From the NCBI GenBank assembly GCA_001873285.1, contig MNYV01000056.1, forward strand, positions 1-17,252: a DNA stretch of 17,252 nt. Direction: 5' to 3'. Under the pieces are notes generated by a model, which did no database searches, was not told where the DNA came from, and worked only from the letters and a program-made list of their open reading frames with translations. Made by a program: the position numbers and the translations under genes. Source of the DNA: Nitrospirae bacterium CG2_30_53_67. GTDB taxonomy: Bacteria > CG2-30-53-67. This document shows positions 10,260 to 16,289 of this stretch, in pieces (position 1 is the stretch's first letter; each line of letters starts with the position of its first letter).

Positions 10260-13200
10260 TCAGATGAGTTCCTGCAAGAGGTTTTTGGTCATGGACCACG
10301 ACTCCTCGAAGTTCCCGTCCGGCTTGACCAGTTCCAACTGGAATTCAGAGACCGGACGGATCCGGTTCGAGGAAGCACGAATCAGCCGCAAGACCCTTTC
10401 CTGAGGAACCGGGGTCTCCTTGTCAAAGGTGAACAGGATCCTTTTGTCTTGCTCCAGGATTTCGCTGATGTGAAGGCGGCGCGCCAGAATTCTCAATTCA
10501 ATGATCCGGAAGAGATTCTCAAGCTCCTGGGGATGGGGGCCGAACCGGTCCCGGGTTTCATCCATGATCCTGGCCAGGTCGGCAGGGTCATCCAGCCGGG
10601 CCACTCTCTGATAAAGGTCGATCCGGAGTCGGTTTTCCCGGAGATAACTCTTGGGGATTCTTGCAGAGACCTGCATGTGGATGGACGGCTCGACCGGTTG
10701 GACCTTTTTTTCTCCTTTCAATTCAGAGGCGACCTCGTCGACCAGCTGCATATAAAGATCGAAACCGATTGAGGCAATAAATCCGGACTGCTGGGAGCCG
10801 AGGAGGTTGCCTGAGCCCCGGATCTCAAGATCTCGTGCGGCGAGCTGAAAGCCCGAGCCGAGTTCAGTGAGTTCCTGAATGACCTGCAGGCGCTGCCGTG
10901 CCTCTTCACTCATGGATTTTTCTGAACGGGTCAGGAGGTAGGCATAGGCCCGGTGATCCATTCTGCCGATTCTTCCCCGGAGCTGGTAGAGCTGGCCGAG
11001 GCCGAACTCCTCAGGACGGTGGATGATCATGGTATTGGCATTGGGAATGTCCAGTCCGGATTGGATGATGCTGGTGGTGACCAGGAGATCGATTTTTTTA
11101 TCCAGAAATCGGTCCATGACATCTTTGAGCCGATTTTCTTCCATCTGTCCATGGGCTACATCAATCCTGACTTCCGGGACAATCCTGTGGATGTAGTCGG
11201 CCATCCGATGGATGTCGCTGACCCGGTTGTGAACAAAAAAAACCTGCCCTCCCCTGTTCAACTCTCGAAGGACAGCCTCCCGGATGATTTCATCAGAGAA
11301 TCGGGCCACCTTGGTGTAGATGGAGAGGCGGTTCTCCGGCGGGGTATTGATGATGCTGATGTCACGGATTCCCAAAAAAGCCATCTCCAGGGTCCTCGGT
11401 ATGGGCGTGGCGGTCAGGGTCAATACATCCACTTCCTTGCGGAGCTGTTTGAGCTTTTCCTTGTGGCGGACGCCGAAATGCTGTTCCTCGTCGATCACCA
11501 GGAGTCCCAAGTCCTTGAACACGAGGTCCTTAGATAGGAGGCGGTGCGTGCCGATCAGGATATCCACCTGTCCAAGACGGAGCTTTTCGAGGATCTCTTT
11601 TTGTTCCCTTCTCGGCTTGAACCGGCTCAGCATCTCCACTTTCACAGGAAAAGGACTGAACCTCTGTGTAAAAGAGTCGTAATGCTGCTGTGCCAGAAGG
11701 GTGGTTGGGACCAGGATGGCCGTCTGCTTGCCGTCGAGAACGGCCTTGAAGGCGGCCCGGATGGCCACTTCGGTTTTTCCGAACCCCACGTCGCCGCAGA
11801 CCAGCCGGTCCATGGGTGTGGGTTTCTGCATGTCTTCCAGAACCTCCTCGATGGCCCGCTGCTGGTCCGGGGTCTCTTCGTATTCGAAGGTCTCCTCTAA
11901 TTCATGGAAGAGATGGTCCGGCGGCGAAAATGCGGTTCCTTGGGCGACTTTCCGCTGCACATAGAGTTCAAGAAGTTCACGGGACATATCTTCGATGGAT
12001 TTTTTTACTTTTTGTTTGAGCTTCTCCCATCCGGTTCCGCCAAGGCGGTCCACCCGAACCGAGTGTCCTTCGCTTCCGGAATATTTCTGGAGAAGGCGGA
12101 TCTTCTCCGGCGGCACATAGAGGAGATCCCCCCCTGCATATTCAATCAGAATCAGGTCGCAATCCATCCCGTCTAAACCGACCTCTCTTAACCCGCGGTA
12201 CCGTCCGATGCCGTGATCCAGATGAACCACAAAATCCCCTTCCTTGAGTTCGGAGAGGCTGCTCAGGAAAGGCCCTTCCCGGAGGGGTTTGGATGACCTG
12301 CGGACCCTCTTGATTCCGAAAATTTCATCCTCGGTGATGCAGGCAAGATCGAAGATCGGAAAACCAAACCCTGCCGATAGAGGGCCGACGACGATTCCCA
12401 CAATCCCTTTTTCATTCGGTAGATCGGAAAATAGGTCGCAGCGGGCGGAGGGGATCTTCTCCTCTTTTGAAAGAAGCTCCATCATGCGATTGGCCTGTCC
12501 CGGAGTGCGTACGGATATGCAGATTCTTGCCTGATTCTTCATTCCTCTGACCACTTCGCAGAGGGAGGCGATACGGCTCTTTCCAGGAACGGCAAGACTT
12601 CCAATGGATTCGGTCTGAATGCGGGCCTCTTCTTCTCCTTCCTGTGGAATCAAGGCGAAGCTCAGGGATCTTCGGTCCTTAATCCTTGCGGTCAGTTCAC
12701 CGCTTCCCATGTAGAGATCCGGGATCCCGCAAGGCATTCGATCCTGGTACGAAGCCAGGGCATAGCGTTCCTCGATCTCTCTCCCGAAGGATACAGCCTG
12801 ATTTTGAATCTCTTCAGCCTGGTCCAGGACCACGATCGTCTGATCAGGCATATAATCGAAGATGGTCTCCATGTCAGGACAAAAAAGGGGCGCATAGAAC
12901 TCCACGCCATCCGGCGCCTCCTCCGGGTCCGGAAGCGCCGAGAGGGAGTGCAAAGCGCCGCCGGTCCGTTTTCTAAAATGGTCCATGGCCGGCGGGTCCA
13001 ACAGGATCTCTCGGGAGAGGATGGTCCGGATGCTTCCGACCTGATGAGAAGAGCGCTGGTCTTCCGGAGAGAAGATCCGGATCGATTCAACCTCGTCGCC
13101 GAAGAATTCCATGCGGAAAGGATAGGGCTGGTTAGGCGGGAAAATGTCCAGGATACCCCCCCTGCGGCTGAATGTACCCGGTCGATCAACCAGTTCCTCC

Positions 13201-13706
13201 CTCCGGTATCCAAGACGGCGGATCTGATCCATGAATGAATCCGGATCGAGGACGTCGCCTACATGAATCTCCAAAGCCCCCCGTTTCAACACGACCCTGG
13301 ACAGGATGCGCTGAAGCGCCGCCCGGACGGTCGTGACGACCATGAGGCGATCACCGTGGACAAGGCGGTAAAGGATGCTTAACCGTTCTTTTACGATCTC
13401 AGGGTGAGGGCTCTTGTCATCGTAAGGAAGGACTTCCCATTGGGGAAAGAGGCGCGGCTCCGGAATGTCTTTTTGTCTCCCCTTTGCCTCCTGAGAAAAA
13501 AAAATAAAGTCATTGAAAATCTTCTCAGCCTCGGATGGAGTAGAGGTCATGATGAGGAGAGGATGGGGTGCGGTTTTCAGTAAGTGTGAAAGGACCAGCA
13601 TCCTGGATGCGCCTTGCAGCCCTGTGAAACAGATGGGTTTCCCCTCTCCTTGAATCAGGGCTTCCCATAGGCGTTCCAAATCCTGGAGCGTGTTGATTTC
13701 TACCAT
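10260..13706 (-). CDS. mfd: Transcription-repair coupling factor Mfd
   Basis: The 1148-residue protein has the full Mfd architecture and usual length: UvrB-like N-terminal modules (1-about 340) with RPGTFSRRGGILDIFPP (175-191), a D3 region, and the RNA-polymerase-interacting domain (about 486-580) starting DFVVHLDHGIGRYRGL. The RecG-like SF2 translocase follows, with Walker A GDVGFGKT (638-645), DEEQ (739-742), TATPIPRTL (765-773) and the motif VI region GQLYQLRGRIGR, then the C-terminal D7 domain (about 1000-1148). Mfd displaces RNA polymerase stalled at lesions and recruits UvrA. It is first in an operon with the two folding factors, two bases between stop and next ATG. The start has no clear ribosome binding site. 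A repeat element lies immediately upstream and appears to have split the original promoter. Confidence 0.97.
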   Translation of the reverse strand: MVEINTLQDLERLWEALIQGEGKPICFTGLQGASRMLVLSHLLKTAPHPLLIMTSTPSEAEKIFNDFIFFSQEAKGRQKDIPEPRLFPQWEVLPYDDKSPHPEIVKERLSILYRLVHGDRLMVVTTVRAALQRILSRVVLKRGALEIHVGDVLDPDSFMDQIRRLGYRREELVDRPGTFSRRGGILDIFPPNQPYPFRMEFFGDEVESIRIFSPEDQRSSHQVGSIRTILSREILLDPPAMDHFRKRTGGALHSLSALPDPEEAPDGVEFYAPLFCPDMETIFDYMPDQTIVVLDQAEEIQNQAVSFGREIEERYALASYQDRMPCGIPDLYMGSGELTARIKDRRSLSFALIPQEGEEEARIQTESIGSLAVPGKSRIASLCEVVRGMKNQARICISVRTPGQANRMMELLSKEEKIPSARCDLFSDLPNEKGIVGIVVGPLSAGFGFPIFDLACITEDEIFGIKRVRRSSKPLREGPFLSSLSELKEGDFVVHLDHGIGRYRGLREVGLDGMDCDLILIEYAGGDLLYVPPEKIRLLQKYSGSEGHSVRVDRLGGTGWEKLKQKVKKSIEDMSRELLELYVQRKVAQGTAFSPPDHLFHELEETFEYEETPDQQRAIEEVLEDMQKPTPMDRLVCGDVGFGKTEVAIRAAFKAVLDGKQTAILVPTTLLAQQHYDSFTQRFSPFPVKVEMLSRFKPRREQKEILEKLRLGQVDILIGTHRLLSKDLVFKDLGLLVIDEEQHFGVRHKEKLKQLRKEVDVLTLTATPIPRTLEMAFLGIRDISIINTPPENRLSIYTKVARFSDEIIREAVLRELNRGGQVFFVHNRVSDIHRMADYIHRIVPEVRIDVAHGQMEENRLKDVMDRFLDKKIDLLVTTSIIQSGLDIPNANTMIIHRPEEFGLGQLYQLRGRIGRMDHRAYAYLLTRSEKSMSEEARQRLQVIQELTELGSGFQLAARDLEIRGSGNLLGSQQSGFIASIGFDLYMQLVDEVASELKGEKKVQPVEPSIHMQVSARIPKSYLRENRLRIDLYQRVARLDDPADLARIMDETRDRFGPHPQELENLFRIIELRILARRLHISEILEQDKRILFTFDKETPVPQERVLRLIRASSNRIRPVSEFQLELVKPDGNFEESWSMTKNLLQELI

Positions 13707-13734
13707 ACGGAAAAAATCTCAAGGGTTTAAATCA

Positions 13735-13752
13735 AAAATTATATACCATCTC
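13735..13752 (+). repeat. Left copy of the 18-bp direct repeat flanking repeat element 1
   Basis: AAAATTATATACCATCTC here and AAAATTATATCCCATCTC at 14050-14067 differ at one base. They bracket the element, as a target-site duplication would. The last six bases overlap the conserved left end of the element (CATCTCC), so the duplicated target may have already resembled the element end. Confidence 0.65.
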
Positions 13753-14048
13753 CAAAAGAGTGTGCGTAAAACATCAGGGTTCAAGGGGTCAAGGATTCCA
13801 GGGGTCAAGTGAAATGCTAAAAACATAAGGGGCCGAGTGTCCTATGGTTACGCTTCGCGTGTCCCGTTTTGCTCTATACTTGTCGTCTGCGACGGCTACT
13901 ACACTAAGGCATCCTGGGGTCAAGGGCCCCAGTGTTTTTTTCTAGAGATTTTGCTTGCGTTTCAGTATTTCACTTGAATCCTTGACCCCTTGGCCCCTCG
14001 ACCCCTTGGGTCCTCGAAACTTTTTTACCCACTAGATGGGAGAAGAAC
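13747..14048 (+). mobile_element. Repeat element copy 1: MITE-like, non-coding interior
   Basis: The ends match copy 2 at 16006-16271 in the same orientation: left end CATCTCCAAAAGAGTG followed by runs of GGGGTCAAGG type and AGGGGTCAAGTGAA; right end ACTTGA...CTTGACCCCTTG, TCCTCGAA, TTTTTACC and GGAGAAGAAC. Left and right arms are imperfect inverted repeats of each other over about 80 bases (for example TCAAGTGAAAT left, ATTTCACTTGA right). The interior (about 13815-13960) is unrelated to that of copy 2 and has two tight hairpins and a terminator-like structure. No transposase is encoded, so it must be moved in trans if mobile. Similar GGGTCAAGG repeats occur around four-helix-bundle genes in environmental genomes, from memory. 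Confidence 0.7.
13914..13941 (+). terminator. Terminator-like hairpin inside repeat element 1
   Basis: CTGGGG (13914-13919) pairs with CCCCAG (13927-13932) around a seven-base loop, followed by TG and seven T (13935-13941). No rightward gene precedes it, so it would end only an RNA made from the element interior. Part of the stem derives from the GGGGTCAAGG repeat, so chance is possible. Confidence 0.45.
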
Positions 14049-14049
14049 T

Positions 14050-14067
14050 AAAATTATATCCCATCTC
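14050..14067 (+). repeat. Right copy of the 18-bp direct repeat flanking repeat element 1
   Basis: This copy matches 13735-13752 at 17 of 18 bases. It starts one base after the conserved right end of the element (GAGAAGAAC). Confidence 0.65.
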
Positions 14068-14082
14068 ATCGTCATTCAACAA
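14053..14082 (-). promoter_or_regulatory. Ancestral mfd promoter, now separated from mfd by the repeat element
   Basis: On the minus strand TTGTTG (14077-14082), an 18-base spacer and TATAAT (14053-14058) point toward mfd across the element. The TATAAT is part of an 18-bp direct repeat whose other copy (TATAAT at 13738-13743) sits 32 bases before the mfd ATG without a good -35 box (CGCACA at the right distance). Before the insertion one promoter would have served mfd at normal distance; now transcription must either cross the element or use a remade promoter at its left end. Confidence 0.45.
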
Positions 14083-14204
14083 GAAGGAAAACGATCAAAT
14101 TCAAGATGGAAAGAACCAGAGGAGAAAAATGCCTGAACCTGATGCTGTATGCTGTGAATGAGAGCGGGAGAAGATAGCGTGTTATAAAGAAACCGATATG
14201 CGGA

Positions 14205-14750
14205 TCAGATCTCTTCAAGGAGGAGCTGTTTGGTCCGGTAAAGGGTCGTTTTGATGGAACCCGTGGACTTTCGCGTCTCTTTTGCGATCTCTTTGATGCT
14301 CAGACCGTCGAAATGTTTTTTTAAGAAGATCTCCCGGCTTTCAGAGTCGATTTTTGCAAGCTTTTTATTGCACGCCAGGAGAAATTCCTGGTATTCGATT
14401 TTTGAAAGGGGGGTATCGTTTTCCATATAAAAGTTTTCAAAATGGCTTTCTTCTGTCTCCTGAACGGCTTGGATTTTACGCCTCTTGCTTCGGAACCAGT
14501 TATGGACCGTATTTTTTGTAATACCGTAAATCCAGCAGAGAAGCGAAGACTTGCCTTCAAAATGCCCAAGGGATTCGATGATTGAGATAAAAACTTCCTG
14601 GGTGAGGTCTTCGCTGACCTCATGGTCTCGAACCTTCAGGAAAATCGTGTTGTAAACCTTATGGAAATAGGTATTGTATAAGGAATCGAAGGCTTCCCGG
14701 TTCCCGGATAGGATATTCTGAATTAATGCTCGCTCGTTATGACTCAACAT
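14205..14750 (-). CDS. ECF-type RNA polymerase sigma factor
   Basis: This is a 181-residue two-domain sigma factor. Region 2 (about 20-92) includes FDSLYNTYFHKVYNTIFLKV, the core-binding and -10 segment EDLTQEVFISIIESL, and CWIYGITKNTVHNWFRSKRR. A linker follows at 93-121. Region 4 (about 122-178) holds the helix-turn-helix DGLSIKEIAKETRKSTGSIKTTLYRTKQLL that reads the -35 element. No anti-sigma gene lies downstream: the next 155 bases have no credible frame before repeat element 1. It may be an orphan, or its partner was lost. There is no ribosome binding site before the ATG, and a sigma-54 promoter at 14763-14779 would start the mRNA about two bases upstream of it. By eye it is more AT-rich than mfd. 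Its group and regulon are not recognisable. Confidence 0.85.
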   Translation of the reverse strand: MLSHNERALIQNILSGNREAFDSLYNTYFHKVYNTIFLKVRDHEVSEDLTQEVFISIIESLGHFEGKSSLLCWIYGITKNTVHNWFRSKRRKIQAVQETEESHFENFYMENDTPLSKIEYQEFLLACNKKLAKIDSESREIFLKKHFDGLSIKEIAKETRKSTGSIKTTLYRTKQLLLEEI

Positions 14751-14779: not shown

Positions 14780-14972
14780 TAAATTCAGGCAAACCGGCAA
14801 ATATCACCCAACTTCTTATATTTATTGGAGAAATAAATTTATAATCATCCGGTCTCTTGTCCAAGATCGGTTTTGGCCCGAAGAGGGGGAAAACGAAATA
14901 AATATTGTTTTACAAAGAGTTATCATTCTTGAGATCCATTTTCAACCCTGATGGGTTCAAGGGAAGGAGTGT

Positions 14973-15005
14973 GAAAATATTTTCCCTTTTTGTGAAAATA
15001 TTTTC
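14973..15005. promoter_or_regulatory. Two identical 12-bp palindromes 21 bp apart, enhancer-like
   Basis: The perfect palindrome GAAAATATTTTC occurs at 14973-14984 and again at 14994-15005, within a 21-bp tandem repeat (GTGAAAATATTTTC plus a pyrimidine run). A third, decayed unit starts near 15012. Spacing of 21 bp places both sites on the same DNA face. They lie about 220-250 bp upstream of the ECF gene's predicted start and just after the CheZ-like gene stop, fitting either upstream activator sites for the sigma-54 promoter or an AT-rich binding region for another protein. Confidence 0.5.
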
Positions 15006-15027
15006 TCTTTTTGTGTAAAAAATTACC

Positions 15028-15849
15028 CTATTTTAAAAATTCGGAGAGGAGCCGGTCCACTTCTTCCTGCTGGATGGCATCTTTTTTCTCCCCTTGGAGC
15101 ATGTCGAGCATCTGTTCTCCCCGTTTGATGTTTTCATCTTCAGGATTTTCTTCTTTTCGGAGCCTGATCCCGAAGTTGAAAAGGATAGAGATCAGCTTGT
15201 TTTCCACGTCTTCCTGGAGTTTGACCACCTGATGAAGTTTTTGGCCGGATCGGTCCTGAGCGGAGAGGGATTCCGCCATTTTTGTCAGATCGACGCCGCT
15301 TTCGGCGCTGTTGGTCTTCAACTCATCTATATTGTTGAAGAGATCGCCTTCTTGTTTTCTCATATCTTCCAGCGTCTTTTTAATGAGGTTAAATTTATCC
15401 GCCATATCTTCCTGACTTGCCTTGACCTTCTCCAGGAGATCCATGGTGTTGCTGCTCCCTTCATTTGCAGCCGCAAGGATCGTGGAGAGCTTCGCGGCTG
15501 GTGCAGGGATTCCCTTGACGGGAAATTGAGTCAGGTCCTGTCTCATGCTGTTCACCAGGTCTTGTTTGAGACGAACGATCTCATCAGACACCTCTTTGAC
15601 CTTGCCGAGAAGTTCACGATACATCTTTTCATAGGAGACCTTTGGAGGGGTTTTATTCTCAAAAAACCCGACCAGCTCTTTTGCATCGTAGAGCGGTATG
15701 CGTTCATCTTTATACTGGATCTGCCTGGGGATCTGCAGGGGGAAGTTCTGAGGCGGTAATATCGTATACAACCCGTCCAGCCGGATGGCTGTCTTCTTTC
15801 CGTTGACGTTGGCCAGAACAATGTAGCGTGCATTCTCTCTATTTTCCAT
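15028..15849 (-). CDS. CheZ-like phosphatase with a CheW-like N-terminal segment
   Basis: This is a 273-residue cytoplasmic protein. Residues about 7-63 (RYIVLANVNGKKTAIRLDGL, then PRQIQYKDERIPLYDAKELVGF) resemble the first half of a CheW fold. Residues about 70-235 are long helices like the CheZ hairpin, with AQDRSGQKLHQVV at 197-209; D199 and Q203 match the spacing of the catalytic Asp and Gln of E. coli CheZ (D143, Q147), which removes phosphate from CheY-P. The C-terminal EEVDRLLSEFLK (262-273) resembles the CheZ tail peptide that docks CheY. No other chemotaxis gene is in the window. The start has AGGAG ten bases upstream and a good promoter at 15938-15966. The CheZ part is fairly sure; the CheW part is tentative. 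Confidence 0.7.
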   Translation of the reverse strand: MENRENARYIVLANVNGKKTAIRLDGLYTILPPQNFPLQIPRQIQYKDERIPLYDAKELVGFFENKTPPKVSYEKMYRELLGKVKEVSDEIVRLKQDLVNSMRQDLTQFPVKGIPAPAAKLSTILAAANEGSSNTMDLLEKVKASQEDMADKFNLIKKTLEDMRKQEGDLFNNIDELKTNSAESGVDLTKMAESLSAQDRSGQKLHQVVKLQEDVENKLISILFNFGIRLRKEENPEDENIKRGEQMLDMLQGEKKDAIQQEEVDRLLSEFLK

Positions 15850-15966: not shown

Positions 15967-16005
15967 GAATAAATCATAGAGAACCCCATGTTTTTAAAAG
16001 TAGAT

Positions 16006-16271
16006 CATCTCCAAAAGAGTGGGTGAAAACATCAGGGGTCAAGGGTTCAAGGATTCCAGGGGTCAAGTGAAGTGCTCAAGTACGACAAGGAGTTAAAGGT
16101 TTGGCAGAAGTTTTATCAATGATGCTTGAAAATTTACAAAACAACAAAAAGATTTCCTGATGAGGTTGAGCGGATACTCAAGGCGCTGATCAAATCACTG
16201 GAAAACGAACACTTGACCCCTTGACCCCTGGAATCCTCGAACCCTTTTTACCTACTAAATAGGAGAAGAAC
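16006..16271 (+). mobile_element. Repeat element copy 2: carries a four-helix-bundle gene remnant
   Basis: It has the same ends and orientation as copy 1 at 13747-14048: left CATCTCCAAAAGAGTG and repeated GGGTCAAGG units to AGGGGTCAAGTGA; right ACTTGACCCCTTGACCCC, TCCTCGAA, TTTTTACC and GGAGAAGAAC. The interior is the decayed gene at 16072-16224. Flanks share only a loose match (TTAAAA...TA...GAT...CAT on both sides, with gaps), so a target duplication is uncertain. It lies 18 bases upstream of the -35 box of the rlmE promoter. Confidence 0.7.
16072..16224 (+). pseudogene. Four-helix-bundle (S23 / 23S rRNA intervening-sequence type) protein remnant
   Basis: From a GTG at 16072 the frame reads LKYDKELKVWQKFYQ, a TGA stop (16120-16122), then CLKIYKTTKRFPDE joined directly to EVERILKALIKSLENEH, ending at TGA 16222-16224. 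Intact members of this family (about 115-125 residues, from memory) start with a KYDKELKVWQKSYQLCLKIYK-like segment and end with a EVERMLKALIKSLEN-like helix, with the conserved SIPSNIAEG region between. That middle, about 70 residues, is missing, and one codon has become a stop, so the gene is dead. Such genes sit in IVS elements of 23S rRNA and in intergenic repeats in many environmental bacteria; their function is unclear. Confidence 0.75.
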
Positions 16272-16289
16272 CTTAAAAATAAGATAGCA

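Follow-up and report, generated by a model that had tools for sequence, protein, structure and literature searches.

A probable MITE with ISL3-type ends upstream of mfd in Nitrospirae bacterium CG2_30_53_67

The mfd locus and element 1

The window analysed here is a 17,252-nt stretch of contig MNYV01000056.1 from Nitrospirae bacterium CG2_30_53_67 (G000, the genome under study: a 2.36-Mb draft in 183 contigs, 95% complete). It contains mfd and its neighbour, an ECF-type sigma gene with which mfd is possibly co-transcribed, and the intergenic stretch between the two genes is interrupted by a repeat element (element 1; Table 1) whose left-hand duplication lies 28 bp before the start codon of mfd. 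In G003, which belongs to the same family and another genus, the same sigma gene stands directly before mfd, across a short gap and without the element; this gene order agrees with insertion in G000. A scan of genome contigs with Mfd found no closer relative; G001 is the one congener compared, and its Mfd is ~68% identical to that of G000. (Elsewhere in the window, at 14970-15032, three tandem 21-bp copies, TGTGAAAATATTTTCCCTTTT, lie beside the 3' end of a CheZ-like gene.)

Element 1 is 307 bp long, contains no ORF of at least 80 aa, and is laid out as AAAATTAT / 13743-14049 / AAAATTAT. Its subterminal arms are 73-79% complementary by repeat search, and its RNA, read in the mfd sense, is predicted to fold strongly (-105 kcal/mol, z -3.7). 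An Rfam scan of the whole window returned zero matches and no rRNA, and no DNA relatives of element 1 were found in plasmid and phage collections. Identity with a 23S rRNA intervening sequence was considered and rejected: element 1 and a second element of the window (element 2) are intergenic and do not lie within a 23S rRNA gene.

Table 1. Positions of genes, element parts and promoter-like motifs in the window
Feature	Positions	Strand	Basis
mfd (TRCF, UvrB_inter, CarD_TRCF_RID, DEAD, Helicase_C domains)	10260..13706	-	Pfam
Left target-site duplication AAAATTAT, 8 bp	13735..13742	.	identical to 14050-14057; family-wide 8-bp rule
Near-side TATAAT; element end supplies first base	13738..13743	-	
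Element 1: MITE copy (probable), 307 bp, ISL3-type ends	13743..14049	+	aligned with 24 other complete G000 copies
Left terminal inverted repeat of element 1, ATACCATCTCCAAAAGAGTG... (family GGATCATCTCCAAAAGAGTGGGTGAAAA)	13743..13770	+	resembles ISL3 insertion sequence ends
Left subterminal arm: degenerate 8-nt GGGGTCAA-type repeats, complementary to right arm	13776..13826	+	repeat search
Core of element 1, small hairpins; present too in other repeat elements of G002/G004	13846..13934	.	
Terminator-like hairpin and T-run within element 1, directed away from mfd	13914..13941	+	
Right subterminal arm of element 1	13960..14006	-	repeat search
Right terminal inverted repeat of element 1, minus-strand reading AGTTCTTCTCCCATCTAGTGGGTAAAAAAG (family GGTTCTTCTCCCATTTAGTGGGTAAAAA)	14020..14049	-	
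Right target-site duplication AAAATTAT	14050..14057	.	family-wide 8-bp rule
Candidate (weak) original promoter TTGTTG-18-TATAAT, intact, far side	14053..14082	-	sequence; fails consensus scan
Right flank ATCCCATCTC, 9/10 identical to element 1 left end	14058..14067	.	
ECF-type sigma-70 gene directly upstream of mfd, same strand	14205..14750	-	Pfam; G003 has same neighbour
Element 2: sister MITE, core an IVP/S23 gene remnant; duplication TTAAAAGT (15994-16001) / TTAAAAAT (16273-16280)	16002..16272	+	

Copies, ends and target sites of the family

Family left ends number ~105 (57 + 48) in G000 and 18 in G001 when up to 3 mismatches are allowed (a reversed control pattern gave 0), and many G000 contigs terminate in a family copy. 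Complete copies span 136-404 bp; alignment of 25 of them by their ends yields the consensus GGATCATCTCCAAAAGAGTGGGTGAAAACAT on the left and, read inward, GGTTCTTCTCCCATTTAGTGGGTAAAAA on the right. The terminal inverted repeats are imperfect (GG(A/T)TC(A/T)TCTCC...GAGTGGGT(G/A)AAAA), and complete copies carry both ends (GG(A/T)TC(A/T)TCTCC...AGTGGGT). In the 25 complete copies, left and right flanks resemble each other (identity 0.68-0.88) over exactly 8 positions; outside these, identity drops to background (0.04 at -1, 0.20 at +8). Over the 8 positions 158 of 200 flank bases match, as against 96.5 +/- 6.6 for shuffled pairs (maximum 125 in 10,000 shuffles). Exact duplications in other copies include TAAAAAAT, ATAAATAT, AAAATTAA, TTAATTTT, GAAAATGT, ATAATTAC and TAACTTAC, and a copy in the congener has TAAATAAA.

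The 8-bp duplication at mfd is not a chance match, because it belongs to this family-wide rule. An earlier note on this DNA had described a longer direct repeat, AAAATTATAT(A/C)CCATCTC, on both sides of the element and had read it as the mark of an insertion that duplicated its target. The repeat is there, with 17 of 18 bases identical (AAAATTATATACCATCTC at 13735-13752, AAAATTATATCCCATCTC at 14050-14067), and both the insertion and the duplication of most of a TATAAT hold; the length of the duplication does not, being 8 bp and not 18. (What this means in terms of sequence is that the first 8 bases alone, AAAATTAT, constitute the target-site duplication, and that what follows, from base 9 to base 18, is already the left end of the element.)

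Element 1 is short and without a transposase gene, has terminal inverted repeats and an 8-bp duplication, and is one of many dispersed copies. It is very probably a non-autonomous MITE with ISL3-type ends that inserted upstream of mfd with 8-bp duplication of AAAATTAT; insertion at this place has good support. The family resembles bacterial MITEs in general in being short and non-coding, with terminal inverted repeats, target duplications and high copy number, and differs from them in that its cores are exchangeable, one of them being derived from an IVP/S23 gene. No previous description of it was found in the literature searched. At L076 / L162 (G000 C57) the subterminal 8-nt repeats have grown into a longer tandem array, the arms acting like a variable repeat. 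Arms of GGGGTCAAG-type 8-nt repeats also occur in related genera in combination with different ends (L003 and L004 in G002 and G004, L005 in G005, L006 in G036); in the distant genome G036 (L006) they are near an IVP-gene fragment.

The long self-complementary arms, the RNA fold (z -3.7) and the occurrence of the same hairpin-rich core in other repeats are also what might be expected of a repeat of the REP or structural RNA type that recombination, and no transposase, has spread, its flank matches arising from AT-rich bias. This origin is highly improbable, since the sharp 8-position flank identity, well above that of shuffled pairs, already contradicts it and the defined ends match an ISL3 insertion sequence. 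A different matter is the similarity that extends past the duplication and that a simple 8-bp insertion does not predict: the left end of element 1, ATACCATCTC, agrees with the right flank, ATCCCATCTC, in 9 of 10 bases, a score reached in none of 1478 comparisons of a left end with the right flank of another copy (maximum 8/10, twice). It may reflect coincidence, a second local duplication or conversion. A second event following the 8-bp insertion (tandem duplication then deletion, slippage, or gene conversion between the flanks) may have copied the 18-bp junction, with the near TATAAT restored thereby or by selection; it would supplement MITE insertion and not replace it. In addition to the exceptional match, the left end of element 1 reads ATAC where the family has GGAT, and all three differences are towards the right-flank base. 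However, this is a single case, the left ends of other copies drift at these positions too, and the flank is without more element sequence past CATCTC; a second event is accordingly regarded as a tentative and rather doubtful addition to MITE insertion.

Promoter-like sequences at the insertion site

TATAAT is found, as the earlier note had stated, on both sides of the element; it reads on the minus strand (14058-14053 and 13743-13738), and the far copy is preceded, at a spacing of 18 bases, by TTGTTG (14082-14077). The duplication supplies ATAAT, 5 of the 6 bases of the near TATAAT, whose leading T is complementary to base 1 of the element. That base is G in most copies, which would give CATAAT; the near TATAAT exists only because the terminal base of element 1 is A instead of this usual G.

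The note had proposed that the element inserted in the mfd promoter and would separate its -35 and -10 elements by ~300 bases; in full, this reading has a duplication of ~18 bp and a change of mfd expression. The 17/18 direct repeat, the perfect TATAAT on either side and the confinement of TTGTTG at 18 bases to the far side speak for such an event, which is nevertheless quite unlikely: the family rule is 8 bp, the remainder of the repeat being element end, and the original TTGTTG-18-TATAAT pair is not split. It is intact on the far side, moved 315 bp from mfd. Nor is it a convincing promoter, as no pair in 13600-14300 passes a consensus scan and TTGTTG agrees with TTGACA at only 3/6 positions, so that this pair lacks the consensus-like -35 and -10 elements of a sigma-70 promoter. 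Moreover, the ~230 nt upstream of mfd in G001 show no ATAATTTT-type site and no TATAAT (G003 is too diverged to compare); the G001 contig ends ~237 nt upstream of mfd, too soon to reveal an empty site there. The case for a change of the mfd promoter by element 1 is weak.

Promoter targeting by the MITE family as a whole was also considered and rejected: target sites overlap a -10-like sequence in 8 of 25 cases against ~5 expected from AT-matched local sequence, which in this small sample is no clear enrichment. The best explanation of the TATAAT overlap is that it is a by-product of AT-rich target preference. What looked like a split mfd promoter is better read as insertion into a leader. Transcripts of mfd starting upstream of element 1 would carry ~307 extra nt as a long self-complementary leader; if the far promoter is real, it would, judging by the sequence, have stayed intact and gained a leader of ~315 nt. 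An effect of the strongly folding element RNA, as modelled, on mfd by way of this leader is conceivable.

ISL3 relatives and copies with IVP/S23 gene remnants

An intact ISL3 element (Pfam DDE_Tnp_ISL3, E 1.5e-67) on the Ca. Manganitrophus plasmid CP114560 is 76% identical, over the compared part, to a broken transposase of G001. Its ends, GGATCTTCTCCAAAGTGAGTGGGTAAAAA and GGCTCTTCTCCCAAACGAGTGGGTGAAA, are the best MITE-end matches in its locus (score 20, 0/5000 shuffles), and an exact 8-bp duplication, ATTCTTTT, lies on either side of it. The broken ISL3 gene of G001 has one end of the MITE kind, GGGTCTTCTCCCAAACGAGTGGGTAGG. The ISL3 element of G005 is intact and flanked by an exact 8-bp duplication, TTCTCTTT; its looser ends (GGTTCT...GTGTGGGTAA) are only weakly similar to MITE ends. 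(A Nitrobacter ISL3 match was rejected: its ends do not match.) For ISCg1, a member of the ISL3 family, the targets are 8 bp long and AT-rich at the centre (PMC8715038). Element 1 thus shares its terminal repeat sequence with the Manganitrophus insertion sequence, and an AT-rich 8-bp target duplication with that element and ISCg1. Unlike ISL3 insertion sequences it has no transposase gene, measures 307 bp, has arms of 8-nt repeats on either side of a hairpin-rich core, and resides in a genome without a detected active ISL3 gene.

Element 1 was probably moved in trans by an ISL3-family transposase making a staggered cut at an AT-rich 8-bp target; repair then left AAAATTAT on each side, as the family-wide 8-bp rule shows. 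Of the features of an ISL3-derived element, the ISL3-like terminal repeats and the AT-rich 8-bp target are present, and an active transposase in the same genome is not. Because no PF01610 (ISL3) transposase is detectable in G000 (95% complete) and G001 has just a broken one, we only infer mobilisation in trans, which may be long past, and the claim is therefore restricted to 'ISL3-type ends' and does not extend to 'currently mobile'.

Element 2 exemplifies a set of sister copies (also L045, L046, L048, L050, L051 and L064) that have the same ends, mostly clear duplications, and cores that are remnants of a PF05635 (IVP/S23) gene, PF05635 being the four-helix-bundle 23S-rRNA intervening-sequence protein. 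At one contig end the C-terminal 67 codons of the IVP gene are open and run into the right arm (E 8.9e-12). IVP-remnant copies are found also at L156 1-256, L163 and L165, the fullest copies being collapsed at contig ends. In G001, the copy L171 (C118:8009-8285) likewise holds an IVP remnant; it shares 91% identity with element 2 and is flanked by an exact duplication of its own, TAAATAAA. Such likeness, though Mfd is so much less similar between the two species, suggests recent or horizontal spread.

The mobility of IVP/S23 has been debated since 1990. Burgin 1990 and Ralph & McClelland 1993 (both cited in PMC4990558) long ago put forward the hypothesis that 23S rRNA intervening sequences stem from transposition. 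Like the intervening sequences with an S23p/IVP ORF of Coxiella and Leptospira, sister copies such as element 2 have inverted arms around an IVP ORF, here a remnant; they differ in lying outside rRNA genes, in their ISL3-type ends and 8-bp duplications, and in that the ORF is mostly broken. It is possible, if at present speculative, that IVP/S23 genes are carried here by non-autonomous transposons of ISL3 type that make exact 8-bp duplications, in which case a common origin or mobilisation route would connect intervening-sequence elements with ISL3 MITEs. A narrow search, which is no proof of novelty, found no literature joining 'four helix bundle protein' with 'MITE'. The IVP-remnant copies, an incidental finding, are more novel than the insertion at mfd, and provide a concrete handle on whether 23S rRNA intervening sequences derive from transposition. 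A high-copy MITE family of a little-known groundwater lineage is now defined by its precise ends, its rule for targets and the family of transposase that probably moved it.
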